Part shown: in pieces, positions 15,560 to 26,162 of the stretch
Numbering within the stretch: the first letter of the stretch is position 1
How the letters are laid out: the number at the start of each line of letters is the position of its first letter
From: Candidatus Binataceae bacterium
GTDB taxonomy: Bacteria; Desulfobacterota; Binatia; Binatales; Binataceae
DNA length: 36,822 bases
Assembly (NCBI GenBank): GCA_036495685.1
Contig: DASXMJ010000054.1
Location: 1-36,822, forward strand
Reading direction: 5' to 3'
Notes under the pieces: generated by a model
The model's input: the letters and a program-made list of their open reading frames with translations, nothing else
What the model was told of the DNA's origin: nothing
Databases searched by the model: none
Made by a program: the position numbers and the translations under genes

Positions 15560-15563
<4 letters not shown>

Positions 15564-16324
15564 CGCCGCCCGTGGAAGATCCCGGGAGGGTACTCGCGTC
15601 GTCCGAGCAGCCTCCGGCTGACGACACCTTGCAAGTCGCCGCGTGGCCGAGGAAATCGGTCGCGCGTGAGTATCTCGAGGCGGTGCTAATCGCGCTGGCT
15701 CTCGCGCTGGTCATTCGCACCTTCTTCATACAGGCGTACATGATCCCCTCGGGTTCCATGGAACCGACGTTGCTGATCGGCGATCACATCCTGGTGAGCA
15801 AGCTGGCTTATGGGATCAGGCTGCCCGATTCGATTTTTGGCCTGCACCTCGTCGGCTTGCCACTCGGACGATACCTGGTGCACTTCGGAAATATCCACCG
15901 CGGTGATGTAATCGTCTTCGTTCATCCACAGGAGCGCGATAAGGATCTGATCAAGCGGGTGATCGGCCTCCCCGGCGACAAGGTCCAGATAAAAACTGGC
16001 CGGGTATGGCTTAACGGCAGTCCCATCAACGATCCACATGCGCACCTCGAGGTCCCCGATGGGCAGCGCTTCGAAGTTCCGCGCGACAACTTTGGCTTCA
16101 TGGACGCCAGCGGAGCCATCGTTGGTCCGCTCGAAGTCCCCGCGGGGCGCCTATTTGTGATGGGGGACAACCGCGATCATAGCGAAGATAGCAGGTATTG
16201 GGGATTTGCCGACCAGAACGACGTGGAAGGGCGGGCGCTGGTGATTTACTGGTCTTGGGACGGTGACGCAAGCGGGCTGTTGCCAATTCGATGGTCGCGC
16301 TTCGGCAGATCGCTCAGTGAGTAA
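15560..16324 (+). CDS. lepB: signal peptidase I, first copy
   Basis: Inner-membrane serine protease that removes signal peptides from secreted proteins. The 254-residue protein has a cytoplasmic N-terminus of about 33 residues, one transmembrane segment (about 36-58), the catalytic-serine motif PSGSMEPTL, the catalytic-lysine motif KRVIGLPGD, and [14 protein letters not shown] near the C-terminus. Serine and lysine are both present, so it should be active. The GTG start overlaps the lepA stop. A second signal peptidase follows 21 bases later. Confidence 0.95.
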
Positions 16325-16345
16325 GAAGATCGGAAGGGGTCGGGC

Positions 16346-17062
16346 GTGGCACAACCAGTGCGAGAGCTGAAGTCGACGGAACCGCCGCGCGCGAGTACCG
16401 GTTCCGCGTCCCCACGACAGAAATCGGCGGCGCGCGAATATGCCGAAGCGCTCGCAATAGCCCTGGTACTTGCGATCTTTATTCGCACGTTTTTTATCCA
16501 GGCGTACAAAATTCCCTCAGGCTCCATGGAGCCGACCCTGCTCATCGGCGACCATATTCTGGTCAACAAGATGATCTATGGGGTCCGCATGCCGGACTCT
16601 ATTTTAGGCCTGGAAATCCCGGGACTGCCGTACGGACAGTACCTGGTGCATTTCGAGGCGATCCATCGTAGCGACGTGGTGGTGTTCGTTTTTCCTCCCG
16701 ACCGCACCAAGGATTTCATAAAACGCGTCATTGGGCTGCCGGGCGACACCATCCAGGTGAAGAACGGACACGTATGGCTCAACGGTCAGAGGATGGATGA
16801 TCCCCATGGGCATTTCGAGGTTGCCGACGGGGACCGCTCGCCCATCTCACCGCGCGACAACTTCGGTCCGGTTCAGGTGCCCTCTGGAAAAATCTTTGTG
16901 ATGGGGGATAATCGCGACCGCAGTTACGATAGCCGGTTCTGGGGGTTTGTCGATAAAAACGACGTTGAGGGTAAGGCGCTGATAATTTACTGGTCGTGGG
17001 ACAGCGATCACGAGGGCTTGCTGCCGGTGCGCTGGTCACGCTTCGGGATGATCGTTCATTGA
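16346..17062 (+). CDS. lepB: signal peptidase I, second copy
   Basis: A second type I signal peptidase of 238 residues, clearly paralogous to the one before it. It has one transmembrane segment (about 31-53), [19 protein letters not shown] with the catalytic serine, KRVIGLPGD with the catalytic lysine, and GDNRDRSYDSRFWG. The two copies share long stretches near both catalytic motifs and differ in the N-terminus and in the loop after the lysine box. The GTG start has a GGAAGGGG ribosome site. It probably arose by tandem duplication and may have a different substrate preference. Confidence 0.95.
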   Translation: MAQPVRELKSTEPPRASTGSASPRQKSAAREYAEALAIALVLAIFIRTFFIQAYKIPSGSMEPTLLIGDHILVNKMIYGVRMPDSILGLEIPGLPYGQYLVHFEAIHRSDVVVFVFPPDRTKDFIKRVIGLPGDTIQVKNGHVWLNGQRMDDPHGHFEVADGDRSPISPRDNFGPVQVPSGKIFVMGDNRDRSYDSRFWGFVDKNDVEGKALIIYWSWDSDHEGLLPVRWSRFGMIVH

Positions 17063-17081: not shown

Positions 17082-17693
17082 GTGGCCGACCAAGCAGCGG
17101 ACCGATTAGGAACGATGCTCGAAGAACTGGGGGTGCGGTTCGAGTTGGTGATTGAAGCGGTAACCGGGTTTGGCGGCCGCATCGACTCGCTGCGCCAGGA
17201 ACTGCTCGGGCAGTTTGCGGAAGTCGGGGGACAGATTCGTTTCCTTTCCGACCAAATTGCGGAAAATCGCCGCGGCCTGGGCGTGCTCAGGTCGGACCTC
17301 GGCGCGGAGATGGTGCGGCTTGGTGAAACACTCGGTCGTACCCGCGTGGAATTCCGCGAACAGCTCAGCGCCGAAGCTACGCGCACCGTCGATACCACGG
17401 CCGCGCGCCTCACCACCGGCGCCGCCGCCGCCCAGGAGCAGGCGCAGCGCAATGCACAAACGATTGAGCACGAACTGGTGCGCGAAATGGCCGAAAGCGC
17501 CAAAGCATTGAAACGCGAACTTGCGTTGTCAGCCGAATCGACCACCAAGAAGCTAGCTATCGAACTCAACAAAACCAACAAAGCCCTGCTAAGCCTGGTA
17601 CAAAAGTTTGATCGTTTCGACGATCGGATCACCATTCAGACCAGGGATCAGGACCAGCGCTTGAAAAAGCTGGAGCGCAAGAAGAGCGCCTGA
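17082..17693 (+). CDS. coiled-coil hypothetical protein
   Basis: I do not recognise a named family. The 203-residue product is almost entirely helical and charged, with long heptad-like stretches. It opens with MADQAADRLGTMLEELG, continues with repeated glutamate/arginine/leucine blocks and has an alanine-rich centre (about 107-125). The C-terminus is lysine-rich (RLKKLERKKSA). No signal peptide or membrane segment is seen. A strong AAGGAGG ribosome site lies before the GTG start. It follows the second lepB by 19 bases and is probably the last gene of the mtnP-to-lepB transcript. A structural or chemoreceptor-like coiled-coil role is possible but unsupported. Confidence 0.75.
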   Translation: MADQAADRLGTMLEELGVRFELVIEAVTGFGGRIDSLRQELLGQFAEVGGQIRFLSDQIAENRRGLGVLRSDLGAEMVRLGETLGRTRVEFREQLSAEATRTVDTTAARLTTGAAAAQEQAQRNAQTIEHELVREMAESAKALKRELALSAESTTKKLAIELNKTNKALLSLVQKFDRFDDRITIQTRDQDQRLKKLERKKSA

Positions 17694-17714: not shown

Positions 17715-17743
17715 TTGACCCGAAGATCGCGCGCGGTTACAAA
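17715..17743 (+). promoter_or_regulatory. promoter of the pyr operon
   Basis: TTGACC at 17715-17720 and TACAAA at 17738-17743 are separated by exactly 17 bases, a good sigma70-type arrangement. The expected transcription start near 17750 falls at the foot of the PyrR-binding hairpin, so the transcript would begin almost directly with the regulatory RNA. Confidence 0.65.
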
Positions 17744-17749
17744 AGAAGT

Positions 17750-17784
17750 AACCTTTAATCCGCTACTGAGATAGCGGGAAGGTT
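17750..17784 (+). promoter_or_regulatory. PyrR-binding RNA hairpin (anti-antiterminator)
   Basis: A two-stem hairpin. The lower stem pairs AACCTT (17750-17755) with AAGGTT (17779-17784). An internal bulge on the 5' side completes a TTTAA run (17754-17758). The upper stem pairs CCGCTA (17760-17765) with TAGCGG (17772-17777), closed by the hexaloop CTGAGA (17766-17771). The hexaloop fits the CNGNGA consensus of PyrR-binding loops known from Bacillus pyr leaders, and TTTAA in the internal bulge is also a feature of that family. It lies between a promoter and a terminator, 68 bases before pyrR. The structure was found by hand pairing. Confidence 0.85.
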
Positions 17785-17823
17785 GCACAGATGAATCACC
17801 TTTGCATTCAGCCTGGCTGCACC
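17781..17823 (+). promoter_or_regulatory. candidate antiterminator of the pyr leader
   Basis: Segment 17781-17790 can pair with 17813-17823: GGT with ACC, GCA with TGC and CAG with CTG, with small bulges. It would use the 3' arm of the PyrR hairpin and the 5' arm of the terminator, so it excludes both. That is the expected layout: without UMP-loaded PyrR the antiterminator forms and the operon is read, and with it the terminator forms. The pairing is imperfect and is an inference. Confidence 0.45.
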
Positions 17824-17841
17824 CGCAGTCGGGTTTTTTTT
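17812..17841 (+). terminator. intrinsic attenuator before pyrR
   Basis: CCTGGCTGC (17812-17820) pairs with GCAGTCGGG (17825-17833), nine pairs including two G-U, around a four-base ACCC loop. Eight T residues follow (17834-17841). It is the clearest factor-independent terminator in the window. It sits 11 bases before the pyrR start codon, so it must act as an attenuator and not as the end of the upstream unit. Confidence 0.85.
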
Positions 17842-17852
17842 CGCGCGCGGCG

Positions 17853-18395
17853 ATGAGCACCAAGCCGCAAATCGCCCTCGACGCTACCGCGGTCGCGCGT
17901 TCCATCAAGCGGATCGCGCATGAAATCGGGGAGCGCCACGGCGGCGCCCAAAACCTCGCACTCATCGGCATCGTGCGGCGTGGCGCCCGCTTGGCCGAGC
18001 GGCTCGCGGCCGAACTCGACGCGAACGGCGCGGGTAGCATCGCGGTCGGCACACTTGACATCTCTTCGTATCGCGACGACGGCAAAGGCAGCCCTGGAGA
18101 TCCTCGGCTGCTCGGTCGCGATATTCCTTTTTCACTGGACCGGAAGCGGGTCGTGCTGGTCGACGATGTTCTCTACACAGGGCGCACCGTGCGCGCTGCC
18201 CTTGACGCGCTCGCTGACCTGGGGCGCGCAGAGTCGATTCAACTGGCCGTATTGGTGGACCGCGGTGAGCACGAGCTGCCCATTCGCGCGGACTACGTGG
18301 GCAAAAATATCAGGGCGCCGGAAGGCCAGCGCGTATACGTACGCCTGGCCGAGGTGGATGGTGCCGATGCAGTCGTGATCGGAAACGGAAAGTGA
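17853..18395 (+). CDS. pyrR: PyrR: pyr operon attenuation regulator / uracil phosphoribosyltransferase
   Basis: Binds UMP/UTP and the pyr leader RNA to promote termination; many PyrR proteins also make UMP from uracil and PRPP. The 180-residue protein has ALIGIVRRGARLAERLA, TLDISSYRDD, the intact PRPP loop VVLVDDVLYTGRT (100-112) and the PyrR signature VDRGEHELPIRADYVGKNI. The ATG at 17853 is chosen because it follows the attenuator. An in-frame TTG at 17802 would translate through the terminator hairpin. Only a weak ribosome site is visible. It is the first gene of pyrR-pyrB-pyrC-carA-carB and is controlled by its own leader. Confidence 0.94.
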   Translation: MSTKPQIALDATAVARSIKRIAHEIGERHGGAQNLALIGIVRRGARLAERLAAELDANGAGSIAVGTLDISSYRDDGKGSPGDPRLLGRDIPFSLDRKRVVLVDDVLYTGRTVRAALDALADLGRAESIQLAVLVDRGEHELPIRADYVGKNIRAPEGQRVYVRLAEVDGADAVVIGNGK

Positions 18396-18414: not shown

Positions 18415-20361
18415 ATGACCCGACTTGACAAAACCGACCTGGTATCGATCGACGATCTCACGCTGCCCGAGATCGAGCGGGTCTTCACGCTCGCGGACGA
18501 ATTTGCCGAAGCGCTCGCGCGCGGCACGAGCCTCGCGCTCGCCAACGGTTTGATCATGGCGACGCTGTTCTACGAGCCATCGACGCGAACTCGCTTGAGC
18601 TTCGAATCGGCCATGCACCGGCTCGGCGGTGCGGTCATCAGCTCTGCCGATATGCGTGCGAGTTCCGCCGTCAAAGGGGAGAGTCTGGCCGACACGGTAC
18701 GCATTGTAAGTGCCTACGCCGACCTCATCGTGCTGCGCCATCCACAGGACGGTGCCGCGCGGGTCGCGGCAGAGTATGCGCCGTGTCCGGTGCTCAACGC
18801 CGGAGACGGCAGTCGCGAGCATCCGACCCAAACCCTCTGCGATTTGTTTGTCCTGCGCCGCAAGAAGAAGAAGCTCAAAGGGCTCACGGTCGCGCTGTGC
18901 GGCGACCTGAAGTTCGGCCGCACCGTCCATTCCCTGATTTACGCGCTAGCCCGTTTCGGCGCGAACATCGTCGCGGTTCCGACCAGCGGGATGGACGTGC
19001 CGGCTTATGTCCTGGAGCGCCTGGCCGCGGAACGCAACTACAGCTTCTCCACGGTAACCATGGATGAGCTGAAATCGCTCGCCGGTGGACTCGACGCGCT
19101 GTATCTGACTCCCAGCGCTCCGCATCAGATGGCCCTTTTCACCGGCGACCTTGCACTCCACAAAGCGCCCGCGGGCGAGGCGCCGGCTTCGCTGGACGCC
19201 TTCTACGTTACCCGGCTGCAGAAGGAGCGGATGGCGGGTAAGGAAATCAAACCGGGCGATTACGTACGTTTCGATGCGCGGGCCCTCAAAACCCAGCGCA
19301 CCCATGAGGCGGTGGTCATGCATCCACTGCCGCGTACCGATGAGCTCGCGTACGAACTCGACACCGACCCGCGTGCAGTTTACTTCGAGCAGGCTGCCGT
19401 CGGCGTACCGGTGCGGATGGCGCTGGTCGCGTGGCTCATTGAACAAAAACGTGACCAGCGCACCGACGCGAAACCGGCGGGCCAAAGTATTCGCTTCAAA
19501 GCCGAGCCGTATCCCCGCTGCGCCAATTCTAACTGCATCACTCGTTTCGAGGGTCCGCACCTGCGTCCGCGTTTCAAGCTGGCGCGCAACATGGACCGAC
19601 AGGTGCTGCCGCTTCGCTGTGAATATTGCGAGCGGGAACTGAACGTCGAATTCGTCGGACATGCGCGCTCGCATCGCTACTACAAGTACGATGAGAATCT
19701 GTACGGCTATGTCCGACAATGGATCGAAGAACCATCTCTGGCGGTATTCGAAACCGTCAAGCAGGCCGAAGAACACGGCTACGAACCGTACCGGCGCGGA
19801 CCGCAGCGCGAAGTCATGAATTCCGACGAGATTGCGCTCGCGGTCGAATCGCTGGCAGACCAGATAGCTGCCGACGTCAGTGACCTGACCAATGTCTATC
19901 TGATCGGAGTAGTGAGCCACGGTGCAGTCCTGGCAACCCGCGTGCGCGACGTGCTCGAAAAGAAGAGTGGAACTCGCGCCCCCTGTGCGGCGGTGGATGT
20001 TTACCGGTCTCAGGAAGCCATCCAGGAGTTGGATGGTGGAGCTCCTTTCGGGGTCGAAGGTCGCACCATCGTGATCGTCGATGACGTGATCAACAGCGGC
20101 TGGACCGTACAACGCGCCATGACCATGATCTGGCAGTACGGTCGGCCGGCCGCGGTGAGGTTAGCGGTGCTGATTGACCGGGGCCACCGCGCGGTGCCGA
20201 TACGTCCGAACTACGTCGGCAAGAATATTCCTACCTCAGCGTCGGAACGCGTACAGGTTCGCCTCGCACCTTCGGGCCGCAACGGAAAACCCAAGGCGCC
20301 TGACCGCGCGATGATCTATTCGATGGTCGAGCCCGTTAAAACTGCAGAGCAGGTGAAATGA
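18415..20361 (+). CDS. pyrB: aspartate carbamoyltransferase fused to a PyrI-like zinc module and a PyrR-like domain
   Basis: Second step of UMP synthesis. The 648-residue protein is about twice the normal PyrB length. Residues 1-345 are the catalytic chain: EPSTRTRLSF (54-63) for carbamoyl phosphate, Lys87 of the 80s loop, HPTQT (136-140), KFGRT (166-170) and HPLPRTDE (303-310). An extra segment of about 34 residues (232-265) precedes TRLQKERM. Residues 369-405 form a zinc module, CANSNC and CEYC, like the C-terminal domain of PyrI. Residues about 468-620 resemble PyrR, with IVIVDDVINSGWT and DRGHRAVPIRPNYVGKNIPTS. The PyrI nucleotide-binding domain is absent. The ATG at 18415 is preferred to the adjacent TTG. 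The stop overlaps pyrC (ATGA). The fusion is one continuous frame. Confidence 0.95.
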   Translation: MTRLDKTDLVSIDDLTLPEIERVFTLADEFAEALARGTSLALANGLIMATLFYEPSTRTRLSFESAMHRLGGAVISSADMRASSAVKGESLADTVRIVSAYADLIVLRHPQDGAARVAAEYAPCPVLNAGDGSREHPTQTLCDLFVLRRKKKKLKGLTVALCGDLKFGRTVHSLIYALARFGANIVAVPTSGMDVPAYVLERLAAERNYSFSTVTMDELKSLAGGLDALYLTPSAPHQMALFTGDLALHKAPAGEAPASLDAFYVTRLQKERMAGKEIKPGDYVRFDARALKTQRTHEAVVMHPLPRTDELAYELDTDPRAVYFEQAAVGVPVRMALVAWLIEQKRDQRTDAKPAGQSIRFKAEPYPRCANSNCITRFEGPHLRPRFKLARNMDRQVLPLRCEYCERELNVEFVGHARSHRYYKYDENLYGYVRQWIEEPSLAVFETVKQAEEHGYEPYRRGPQREVMNSDEIALAVESLADQIAADVSDLTNVYLIGVVSHGAVLATRVRDVLEKKSGTRAPCAAVDVYRSQEAIQELDGGAPFGVEGRTIVIVDDVINSGWTVQRAMTMIWQYGRPAAVRLAVLIDRGHRAVPIRPNYVGKNIPTSASERVQVRLAPSGRNGKPKAPDRAMIYSMVEPVKTAEQVK

Positions 20362-21722
20362 CGGGGATCCTGTTGCGCGGCGGCTATGTAGTCGATCCGG
20401 CAACCCGGACCGAGGGCGTGTTCGACGTCCTCGCGGTCGACGACAAGATCGCTTCCATCGGCCCGTCGGGTAGCGTGTTGGCGCCTGAAGGCAGCGCTAT
20501 TGTCGACGCGCAATCGTGCTGGGTGCTGCCGGGGCTGATCGATGTTCACGTACATATGCGCGATCCCGGCTTCCCCCAAAAGGAAACCATCGCCAGCGGT
20601 CTCCGCGCCGCAGCCGCGGGTGGGTTCACCACGGTGGCCGCGATGGCCAACACCCGACCCGTCAATGATTCACCGCAGGTCACCGGCTATATGCTCGAAC
20701 GAGCACGCGCGACGCGCAGCGCGCAACTCGTCCCGGTAGCGGCCGTAACGCGTGGGCTCGAAGGACGGGCCGGCGTCGACTATCGGGCCATGACCGAGGC
20801 CGGCGCGCGACTCTTTTCCGACGATGGCATGCCGGTCGATGATGAGCCGCTCCTGACCCGCGCCCTGGATGAAATCAGCGCGCTCGGGTACGCGATTTCG
20901 TTGCACGAGGAGGACCGCAACCTTTCCTGCAATGGTGCAGTTAATGCCGGCGCTGCGGCCAAACGGCTGGGCCTCAAGGGTTACCCGAACGCGGCCGAAG
21001 CAGAGCGCGTCCAAAGAGATCTCGGCTTGGCGGTCGCGACTCGGGCACCGGTGCACATCGCGCACGTCTCGACCCGCGAATCGCTTGAGCTGGTACGCGA
21101 GGCTCGATGCCGGGGCGCGCAGGTCACCTGCGAAGTGACGCCCCATCATTTTGCGCTCGACGAGGCGGCGACGCTTCGCTGGGGTCCGAACGCTAAGATG
21201 AATCCGCCTCTCCGTGCACCAGGAGACGTAGAAGCGCTCCGCGCGGCAATCGCCGACGGAACCATCGACATGATTGCATCTGATCACGCTCCCCATGAAC
21301 CGGCCGCAAAGCATCTCGAGCAACTCACGGACTTCTTCAGCCCCAACCGCGATGCTGATCAGCTGCCACCGCGGGTGGCAGAACTCTTCGCGGACTGTGC
21401 CAACGGCGTAGTGGGTCTTGAAACGTCGCTGGGCTTAGCGCTGCAACTCGTGCACCGATCTTTGATCGGTGCGGCGCGTCTGGTTGAGATGATGAGCTTG
21501 AATCCTGCCCGCCTCCTGCGGCTCGAGCGCGGAACTTTGGCCACCGGCACCGTTGCCGACATTACCGTAGTCGACCCCAACCTCGAGTGGGCCGTGGAAC
21601 CGGATCGCTTTCGTTCAAAGAGTCGTAACACGCCCTTCATGGGAATGCGGCTTAAGGGAAGAGCGATTCTGACGATGGTCGGTGGCGAAATCGTATATGA
21701 CGCCCGACGTGGAGACGCTTGA
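20358..21722 (+). CDS. pyrC: dihydroorotase, type I
   Basis: Third step of UMP synthesis, interconverting carbamoyl aspartate and dihydroorotate. The 454-residue protein has the metal-binding HVHMRDPG motif (His64, His66), [26 protein letters not shown] and the catalytic aspartate in ASDHAPHEP (Asp309). Length and motifs are of the Aquifex/Bacillus type I class, members of which can form complexes with aspartate carbamoyltransferase. That is relevant because the upstream PyrB is unusual and the two genes overlap by 4 bases. Its stop overlaps the carA start. Confidence 0.95.
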
Positions 21723-22927
21723 TGGCTGCGCGCGATAAACGAGCCGCAATCCTGGCCCTCGCGGATGGAAACATCTATCGCGGTCTTGCATTCGGCGCGG
21801 TGGGCGAAGCCACCGGCGAGGTGGTGTTCAACACTTCGATGACCGGATACCAGGAAGTGCTCACCGATCCATCTTACAAGGGCCAGCTCGTGTGCATGAC
21901 CTATCCCGAGATTGGCAACGTGGGCGCCAATCGAGAGGATGTCGAGTCGCGCCGCGTTTACGTCGAAGGATTTATCGTCCGGCAATGCTGCGAGCGGCCA
22001 TCGAACTGGCGTTCCGAAGTCTCGCTCCACGAGTACCTGACAGAGGCGGGAATCGCCGGAATCGAAGGAATGGATACGCGCGCCCTGGTGCGCCACATCC
22101 GGACGCACGGAGCGCAGCAAGCCGTTCTTTCCAGCATCGATCTCGATCCGCAGTCGTTGGTCAGAAAGGCGCAGGCGTCGCCCGGGCTGGTAGGTCGGGA
22201 CCTGGTCAGAGAGGTTACGTGCCACGAGGCGCACGATTGGGACCTTGCGGATTGGGAGCTGGGGCAGGGCTACCGGGCCATGACCAAGGAAGAGCTGCGC
22301 GATGCGCCGCGCGTGGTCGCTCTCGACTACGGAATCAAGTTGAATATTCTGCGCCGGCTAGTTGCCAGCGGCTTTCGGGTGCGGGTGTTGCCGGCAAATT
22401 CGAGTGCACAACAAATTCTCGCGGAAAGCCCGGACGGGATTTTTCTTTCCAATGGACCGGGCGATCCAGCCGCGCTGCTGTATACGCATCAGGCCGTCGC
22501 AGGCGTGCTGGGAAAGAAACCGGTCTTCGGTATCTGCCTCGGTCATCAAATCCTGGGCCTAGCCCTGGGCGGGCGAACCTACAAGCTCGATTTTGGCCAT
22601 CACGGCGCGAACCATCCGGTGGTCGACCTGCGCAGCCAGCGAGTGGAGATCACTTCCCAGAACCACGGATTTGCCGTCGACACCGAGTCTCTGAAAGGAC
22701 GAGCCGAGCTCTCGCATCTGAATCTCAACGACCGCACCGTGGAAGGGATGCGCGGGCAGGGTGTTCCGTTCTTCTCGGTGCAATATCATCCCGAAGCGTC
22801 ACCCGGTCCTCACGATTCGAGTTATTTGTTTCGTCGCTTCAAGCGAGTGGTCGAGATGTTCCCCCGTTATGGCGTGGACACGCTCGATCGGGTTGCCGCC
22901 GAGGAGGCCGAAGACGCACGTGGATGA
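21722..22927 (+). CDS. carA: carbamoyl-phosphate synthase small subunit
   Basis: Glutamine amidotransferase subunit that supplies ammonia to CarB. The 401-residue protein has the N-terminal CPSase small-chain domain ([18 protein letters not shown]) and a class I glutaminase domain with the nucleophile in FGICLGHQ (Cys272), plus SQNHGFAVD and [10 protein letters not shown] with the catalytic histidine. The ATG at 21722 overlaps the pyrC stop (TGATG) and is preferred to the TTG one codon earlier. It ends 28 bases before carB. Confidence 0.96.
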
Positions 22928-22955: not shown

Positions 22956-25900
22956 GTGCCGCTGCGCAAAGACTTGAAATCGATTCTGCTTATCGGCTCC
23001 GGCCCGATCGTGATCGGACAGGCCTGCGAGTTCGACTACTCGGGCACCCAGGCGATCAAGGCACTGCGCGAAGAAGGACTGCGTATCATTCTCATAAACT
23101 CCAACCCTGCGACCATCATGACCGACCCGGAACTGGCAGACCGGACCTATATCGAGCCGATGACCGCCGAGGCGATCGGCAAGATCATTGAGCGCGAGCG
23201 GCCGGACGCACTTCTCCCAACCGTGGGTGGTCAGACCGCTCTCAACCTTGCGATCGAACTCGCGGAATCGGGCGTGCTGGATCGTTTTAAGTGCGAACTG
23301 ATTGGCGCCAAGCTGCCAGCCATCAAGAAGGCCGAGGACCGGGACCTCTTCAAACAGGCGATGATCAACATCGGCCTCGAAGTGCCGCGCTCCTCGATCG
23401 CGCATTCGATGGACGATGCTGAACGCATCCGGCAGGACCTCGGACTGCCCCTGATTATCCGGCCGTCGCGGACCCTGGGCGGGACCGGAGGATCGATTGC
23501 TCGGGAACTCGACGACTATCGCGCCAAGGTGAAGTGGGGGCTCGAAATGTCACCCATTCATAAGGTGCTGATCGAGGAGTCGGTCGAAGGATGGAAAGAG
23601 TTCGAGCTCGAGGTGATGCGCGATATGGCCGACAACGTCGTCATCATCTGCTCGATCGAGAACCTCGACCCAATGGGGGTGCACACCGGTGACTCAATCA
23701 CGGTGGCGCCGGCACAGACCCTGACCGACAAGGAATACCAGATCATGCGCAATGCCGCATTGCGCATCATCCGCGAGATCGGGGTCGATACCGGTGGTTC
23801 CAATATTCAGTTCGCGATCGATCCCAACACCGGCAAGATGGTCGTGATCGAGATGAATCCGCGCGTCTCGCGGAGTTCCGCGCTGGCCTCCAAAGCCACC
23901 GGTTTTCCGATTGCAAAGATTGCCGCCCGACTCGCGGTCGGTTACCGCCTCGACGAGATCCCCAACGACATCACCCGCAAGACGCCCGCCTGTTTCGAGC
24001 CGACCATCGATTACGTGGTGACCAAGATCCCGCGCTTTACCTTCGAGAAATTTCGCGGCGCCGCCGACGAGTTGGGGCCGCAGATGAAGTCGGTCGGCGA
24101 GGTCATGGCGATCGGGCGGACCTTCAAGGAATCGTTGCAAAAGGCGCTGCGCTCTCTGGAAATCGGATCCTTCGGACTTGAATCCCACCTGAACGCAGCT
24201 ACTCGCGACGCCGCTTTGGCTGAGCTGCGCAAGGAAGTAAGCCGCCCGAGCAGTCATCGCCTCTTCCATCTGGCCGACGCGTTGCGTCTTGGCCTGGCGC
24301 GCGACGAAGCCTATCGCTTGAGCGCCATCGATCCGTGGTTCATCGACGCGCTAGCCGAAGTAGTGGCGGCGGAAACGCGCGTGGCGCGCGAGCCGCTGAG
24401 CGAGGCCTATTTTCGCGAATTCAAGGCGCTCGGATTTTCCGACCGCCGGATCGCGGATCTCCGCGGCACCCAGGAATCCGAGATCGCGCAGACCCGCCAG
24501 GCATTTAAGGTTGCGCCCGTATACAAGGCCGTCGATACCTGTGGCGCCGAGTTCCAGGCGTTCACGCCGTACCTCTATTCCACGTACGAAGGCGAGGACG
24601 AGGCGGAACCCGACCTGCGCCGCAAGGTGATGATCCTGGGTGGCGGACCCAATCGTATCGGGCAGGGCATTGAGTTCGACTATTGCTGTGTCCACGCGAG
24701 TTTGGCCCTCAAGGAGGCCGGGTTCGAAACCATCATGGTGAACTGCAACCCCGAGACGGTCTCGACCGACTACGACATTTCCGACCGCCTCTATTTCGAA
24801 CCGCTGACCTTCGAGGACGTGCTCGCCATCGCCGAGCGCGAAAAACCCATCGGCGTGATCGTACAGTTCGGCGGACAGACTCCACTCAAGCTCGCGGTTC
24901 CGCTCGCACGGGCCGGGGTGCCCGTCCTGGGTACGAGCCCCGATGCGATCGATCGCGCCGAAGACCGCGAGCGTTTCAACACCCTGGTCGAAAAGCTCGG
25001 ACTGAAGCAGCCGCGCGGGATTCTGGTACGCGGTCTGGACGAGGCGATCCGCGGCGCCAAGCAGATCGGCTACCCAGTCTTGATCCGTCCCTCGTATGTC
25101 CTCGGCGGCCGGGCGATGGAGGTAATTGGCGACGAGGCTTCGCTGCGCCGGTACGTCGCGCAGGCTTTCGAAGCCTCCGAACGCCATCCATTGCTCATCG
25201 ATCGGTATCTGCGCGGCGCCACCGAGGTCGATGTGGATGCGATAAGCGACGGTGAAACGGTGGTGGTCGGCGGTATCATGGAGCACGTCGAGCATGCCGG
25301 TATCCATTCCGGCGACAGCGCGTGTGTTCTGCCGCCGCGAAGCCTCACGCCGGACTTGCAACGTTCACTCACCGAGCAGACCAAATTGCTGGCACGCGAG
25401 CTGGGCGTGGTTGGACTGATTAATGTCCAGTACGCAATCTACGAGGGCGAGGTTTATATCCTCGAAGTCAATCCGCGCGCCTCTCGGACCATTCCGTTTG
25501 TCAGCAAGGCAATTGGGGTTCCGCTCGCCAAGCTCGCGGCCCTGGTGATGGCGGGCAAGAAGTTGAGCGAACTCGGGTTCACAACCGAACGAGTCCCCGG
25601 ATACGTGGCGGTTAAGGAATCGGTCTTTCCGTTTGCCCGCTTCGCCGGAGTCGATACGATTTTGGGACCGGAAATGAAATCCACCGGCGAAGTGATGGGC
25701 ATCGACTCGTCGTTTGCGATGGCGTTTGCGAAGGCGGAACTGGCAGCCGCATCGGACCTGCCGATGGCGGGGCTGGTGTTCATAAGCGTGCGGGATGAGG
25801 ACAAGACGTCGCTGGAACCAATCGTGCGCGGCCTGGTCGACATGGGCTTCGAGCTTATCGCCACCCGCGGGACCGCCGCGTACATCGCCAAGCTCGGTCT

Positions 25901-26162
25901 GAGATGCGCAGCGATCAACAAAGTCCTGGAAGGCAGTCCCCACATCGTCGATGCTATGCAGGCTGGCCGTATCGCCGCGATTATCAACACTCCCGACGAG
26001 AACGGCACGGCGGATTCTTTTTCGATTCGACGTACAGCGCTGGAACTTCGTTTGCCGTACTTCACCACCATGGCGGGGGCGACCGCCGCGGTCGAGGGAA
26101 TTCGCGCGCTAAAGAACGAACGTTTTGAGGTTCGCGCGCTGCAGGATTACCATCGCGGGTAA
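22956..26162 (+). CDS. carB: carbamoyl-phosphate synthase large subunit
   Basis: Makes carbamoyl phosphate from bicarbonate, ammonia and two ATP for pyrimidines and arginine. The 1068-residue length is standard. Two homologous ATP-grasp halves each begin with a GSGP/GGGP nucleotide fold ([20 protein letters not shown] near 11 and [18 protein letters not shown] near 557). A C-terminal MGS-like allosteric domain starts around residue 935 ([18 protein letters not shown]). That domain binds UMP or ornithine in some homologues, so feedback control is possible. The GTG start gives the normal [10 protein letters not shown] beginning. It is the last pyr gene of the operon, with recG 57 bases on. Confidence 0.96.

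Follow-up and report, generated by a model that had tools for sequence, protein, structure and literature searches.

The pyr locus and its leader

The window, by which we mean the whole stretch of 36,822 nucleotides analysed, belongs to a 4.7-Mb draft genome whose closest named relatives are Centralia_MAG_89 and Candidatus Binataceae MAGs. A preliminary description of this DNA had pointed to a Gram-negative-type, deltaproteobacterial or related lineage; the lineage is Candidatus Binatia, family Binataceae. The genes that follow the leader are:

17853..18395, + strand: pyrR, 180 aa (NF003549 PyrR, 204.9 bits; cutoff 138)
18415..20361, + strand: fusion gene for aspartate carbamoyltransferase (ATCase), a PyrI_C zinc domain and a second PyrR-like domain (Pfam OTCace_N, OTCace, PyrI_C and Pribosyltran; NCBIfam TIGR00670 and PyrR models)
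20358..21722, + strand: pyrC (dihydroorotase), in the operon (domain and family profile matches)
21719..22927, + strand: carA, in the operon (ORF and sequence; a homologue follows pyrC in genome G037)
22956..26162, + strand: carB, in the operon (ORF and sequence)

The gene order 3' of the leader is therefore pyrR, fused pyrB, pyrC, carA and carB, and pyrR is the first gene after the leader in practically all loci of related genomes. Just 5' of the operon, positions 15560-17062 hold a tandem pair of signal-peptidase-I-like genes, and 17082-17693, upstream of the pyr promoter, encode a coiled-coil-like protein of 203 aa with no Pfam match. The leader itself consists of the following predicted features:

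17715..17743, + strand: sigma70-like promoter, TTGACC (17715-17720), 17 nt, TACAAA (17738-17743)
17748..17786, + strand: predicted PyrR-binding hairpin with the hexaloop CTGAGA (17766-17771) and a 5' CUUUAA bulge (fold z and covariation)
17779..17782, + strand: AAGG, predicted Shine-Dalgarno sequence (SD) of the leader ORF, paired within the 3' strand of the hairpin (anti-SD energy in the window, -7.1 kcal/mol)
17791..17856, + strand: predicted leader ORF MNHLCIQPGCTRSRVFFRARR*, 21 codons, running through the terminator; its TGA overlaps the pyrR ATG (ATGA)
17811..17841, + strand: intrinsic terminator, hairpin 17811-17834 and T8 tract 17834-17841; the 5' arm begins 20 nt after the leader start

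The leader is compact, as described earlier, with promoter, hairpin and T8 terminator in succession before pyrR. Although a strict promoter scan of the window returned no site, the sigma70-like promoter is present where it had been proposed, and TTGAC is kept in 42 of 55 related leaders. Because of this conservation, and because in most related leaders 5-13 nt separate the end of the -10 element from the CCTT strand, it is likely that the transcript begins at or close to the hairpin base, as the preliminary description had suggested.

A conserved PyrR-type hairpin

The hairpin, with its CTGAGA hexaloop and the internal TTTAA that had been noticed before (here part of CUUUAA on the 5' side), has a minimum free energy of -19.2 kcal/mol (z -5.4), a value equalled by none of 200 shuffles. 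Among pyrR upstream regions gathered from 57 related genomes, nearly all contain a hairpin with a 5' CUUUAA, a CNGNGA-type loop and a 3' AAGG. In 39 distinct sequences, standard pairs occupy 95.6% of the pair cells, and 82 double changes were counted; shuffles gave 27, and sliding the strands gave no more than 14. A lack of covariation in relatives had been named as grounds for refuting the earlier proposal; the covariation is present, and the reading as a pyr leader of the PyrR type in a lineage of Gram-negative type is upheld. Throughout Binatia, and in other families of the phylum, this hairpin is preserved in front of pyrR and shows strong covariation.

A covariance model of the hairpin alone (R1, 41 nt long) detects a single site in the genome itself, with no second PyrR site, and recognizes the element in 46 of 247 genomes from the phylum. 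The sites examined precede pyrR, the exceptions being a contig-end site and, in G037, an additional site preceding pyrC. At the latter (L092), a PyrR hairpin stands before pyrC-carA together with a leader ORF and no visible terminator. R1 also recovers established pyr leaders, scoring 40.1 bits in B. velezensis and 42 bits in Paenibacillus; judged by these matches, therefore, the Binataceae hairpin is the same element as the Bacillus/Paenibacillus PyrR site. The other proposed check, a search with the Rfam model of the PyrR-binding site, gave a different outcome: under gathering and E-value thresholds, RF00515 stayed below its gathering score both in the window and throughout the remainder of the genome, but it does match the B. 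velezensis and Paenibacillus leaders. With its 115 positions, RF00515 also takes in the structure downstream of the hairpin in Firmicutes leaders, and a model of this composition overlooks the PyrR element in this genome.

A predicted leader ORF overlapping pyrR

The preliminary description had missed the predicted leader ORF, which takes its SD from the hairpin's 3' strand and has a stop codon that overlaps the pyrR start. AAGG was seen in every loop-bearing locus scored, and a start codon lies 3-11 nt 3' of it in all 50 leaders, which represent 30 genera; two further loop-bearing loci (L032 and L036) were set aside because the pyrR start could not be assigned. The loci scored are related and the shuffles are uncorrected for kinship, and with this in mind an ATG follows AAGG by 4-9 nt in 41 of the 50 leaders (3.6 expected by composition), and in 34 of them the leader stop, counted under a fixed rule, shares 4 or 1 nt with the pyrR start (shuffled mean 5.9, maximum 14). 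The overlap is present in 19 of the 30 genera, despite a distance from leader start to pyrR that varies from 59 to 172 nt. No ATG after AAGG occurs in any of the four Firmicutes control leaders.

Openness of the frame was dropped as evidence for the ORF: the leader frame is open in 42 of 50 cases, the pyrR frame in 39 and the third frame in five, and the near-equal openness of the pyrR frame makes this weak evidence. In the window, pyrR is devoid of an SD of its own (SD energy 0.0), since the T tract and a CG run fill the place where it would lie; the same holds for other loci in which the terminator abuts pyrR. In four Binatia leaders (L042, L044, L054 and L057) and several from other families, the ORF ends before the terminator or there is no start codon. 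Most leaders in the other families of the phylum do have an ORF, and the layout there is less uniform on account of these early stops and missing starts.

A terminator without an antiterminator

The terminator had been described correctly, with eight T residues ending 11 nt before the pyrR ATG at 17853; it folds with -17.5 kcal/mol (z -5.2 against shuffles). It is found inside 47 of the 50 leaders, and in Binataceae its 5' arm lies 18-25 nt past the leader start codon; L031, L034 and L040 have a leader and no terminator. We also considered that it might terminate the upstream gene, and rejected this because hairpin and terminator stay with pyrR as the upstream sequence changes from locus to locus.

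These distributions bear on the possibility that PyrR merely represses translation of the coupled leader-pyrR pair, much as in mycobacteria, with a terminator that is constitutive or a relic. Such repression would be in keeping with the location of the SD inside the hairpin in all loci, with the three leaders devoid of a terminator, and with three other Binatia loci (L048, L051 and L056) in which there is no terminator and the hairpin SD serves pyrR directly, as it also does in Nonomuraea (L113). However, a terminator that is retained in nearly all leaders, and in Binataceae within the stated 18-25 nt of the leader start, is unexpected for a relic, and we regard this explanation as improbable.

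The preliminary description further proposed an overlapping candidate antiterminator, and hence an attenuator of the Bacillus style, and suggested folding of the alternative structures as a check. We scored the fold of the hairpin 3' strand with the terminator 5' arm as a z value against shuffles. In the window, the fold can be drawn but is no better than shuffles (z -0.25), and it is not conserved: the mean z is +0.26 in 47 Binatia leaders, none of which falls below -1.9, and +0.53 in 30 leaders of the phylum outside Binatia, again with none below -1.9. Four Firmicutes control leaders could be scored in the same manner and yielded -1.95, -2.37, -4.05 and -4.11. As these values are clearly low and those of Binatia are not, the same test separates the two mechanisms. 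In a Bacillus-type device, PyrR would stabilize an anti-antiterminator, and in its absence the hairpin 3' strand and the terminator 5' arm would pair as antiterminator. The shared PyrR-binding element, the terminator downstream of it and a drawable alternative fold all fit this account, but the antiterminator scores do not, and the leader ORF and the stop/start overlap are left unexplained by it; it appears very unlikely to apply here. Thus, the PyrR-type hairpin and the terminator of the earlier proposal stand, and its antiterminator does not. Comparison of the related sequences shows the layout of hairpin, predicted SD and leader ORF, overlap, terminator and no antiterminator.

A proposed ribosome-coupled mechanism

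The leader of the window combines, in its sequence, a PyrR hairpin, a leader ORF for which translation is predicted and a terminator, with no antiterminator, and we propose that it is probably a ribosome-coupled PyrR attenuator with a translated leader ORF. Transcription would begin at or near the hairpin base. When pyrimidine nucleotides are plentiful, PyrR-UMP would hold the hairpin and hide the AAGG SD of the 21-codon ORF; with the leader untranslated, the terminator 20 nt past the start codon would fold and transcription would stop. Any read-through RNA would still be without pyrR translation because pyrR, which has no SD, would depend on leader ribosomes arriving via ATGA. When pyrimidines are scarce, the hairpin would be accessible to ribosomes; having entered the leader by a few codons, a ribosome would cover the terminator, RNA polymerase would continue, and the leader ribosome would reinitiate at pyrR through the ATGA overlap. 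In this scheme we infer the binding of PyrR, the nucleotide signal and the effect of the ribosome on termination. The stability of the hairpin without protein (-19 kcal/mol) counts against the scheme. A prediction that follows from it is that translation of the leader matters and the encoded peptide does not.

An ORF translated through an intrinsic terminator is also the layout of E. coli pyrBI, in which the signal is UTP-dependent pausing and PyrR takes no part. Conceivably, UTP-sensitive pausing of the polymerase could likewise set the closeness of the ribosome at the terminator in the Binatia leaders independently of PyrR, and the window does have the requisite likeness in its ORF and T8 tract. 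Nevertheless, 5' of the ORF stands a covarying PyrR-type hairpin with a CNGNGA loop, which covers the SD of the ORF, and pyrR heads practically every locus, so that we consider a pyrBI-like device highly improbable.

The ribosome-coupled PyrR attenuator proposed here has a closer parallel in Thermus. For the pyrR-pyrB-bbc-pyrC locus of Thermus strain ZO5, Van de Casteele et al. are said to have found, in 1997, a PyrR site and a terminator before pyrR and no antiterminator, and reportedly proposed that a translating ribosome blocks the terminator. The two would thus share the PyrR site, the terminator before pyrR, the lack of an antiterminator and the ribosome model. The Binatia leaders differ from this reported description, to which the comparison is confined, in belonging to another phylum and in having an SD in the hairpin strand and an ORF that ends in an ATGA overlap with pyrR. 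A literature search found no paper on the pyr leaders of Binatia. Ribosome-coupled PyrR attenuation, apparently proposed once, for Thermus, is now backed by comparison in Binatia and several other families, with statistical backing for the layout over about 80 leaders.

In Mycobacterium smegmatis, Fields and Switzer reportedly showed in 2007 that PyrR represses translation by SD occlusion. There the first gene of the operon has its SD covered by the PyrR hairpin, exactly the arrangement seen in L048, L051 and L056, whereas most Binatia insert a leader ORF and a terminator between SD and pyrR, and the SD in the window serves the leader ORF rather than pyrR. The pyr attenuators of Bacillus (RF00515) comprise a PyrR-binding hairpin and a downstream terminator (PMC7430163). 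Binatia have the same hairpin with a terminator downstream, but with a leader ORF instead of an antiterminator and a score below the RF00515 gathering score. One RNA element would serve three outputs: an antiterminator in Firmicutes, a coupled leader and terminator in most Binatia, and direct SD occlusion.

Two PyrR domains and the identity of the reader

Of the Binatia loci examined, 40 carry the PyrB-PyrI_C-PyrR' fusion, namely all 35 of Binataceae and five others; in the window, the PyrI_C-like zinc domain of the fusion has the form CxxxxC...CxxC. The fused PyrR-like domain keeps DRGHR..GKNIPT in nearly all copies, and H140 (Bacillus numbering) is retained in 25 of the 26 sequences from Binataceae. 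Its PRPP loop, in contrast, is broken, with NSGWT (the form in the window) or a close variant replacing YTGRT. The free PyrR shows the reverse: H140 and GKNxPTS are missing in all 40 fusion loci (17853-18395 in the window; L004-L059), whereas H140 is kept in all 52 loop-bearing loci without the fusion. The free protein nonetheless scores as a member of the PyrR family and has the PRPP loop of a UPRTase, TGRT being present in 35 of 35 Binataceae. At T18, T41, H140 and R141, which we take to be the RNA-contact residues of canonical PyrR, the free PyrR of the window has K, R, E and H, with R146 and K152 retained. RNA binding by the free PyrR of Binataceae is thus uncertain, because T18, T41 and H140 differ from the canonical protein.

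With a support of 0.998, the free PyrRs of the fusion genomes fall into a single clade, so that the loss of H140 and the motif would be one event, followed by relaxed constraint. Since the RNA element is still conserved, some PyrR domain must still read the hairpin; the reader may be the free PyrR in its altered form, the domain fused to ATCase, or the two together. The reciprocal pattern, in which the fused copy keeps DRGHR..GKNIPT and the free PyrR has lost H140 and GKNxPTS and kept its PRPP loop, speaks for the fused domain as the RNA-binding regulator of Binataceae, with the free PyrR mainly an enzyme or partner subunit. However, a single evolutionary event underlies the pattern, and the fused domain has an acidic first-helix region; we therefore regard this assignment as rather doubtful. 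If true, the enzyme of the first committed step would bind the leader of its own mRNA.

In Binataceae, C-G as the closing pair of the hexaloop is often replaced by A-U or by an A/G mismatch, and this occurs beside the PyrR changes T18K, T41R and H140E. It is possible that these changes in RNA and protein reflect co-evolution.
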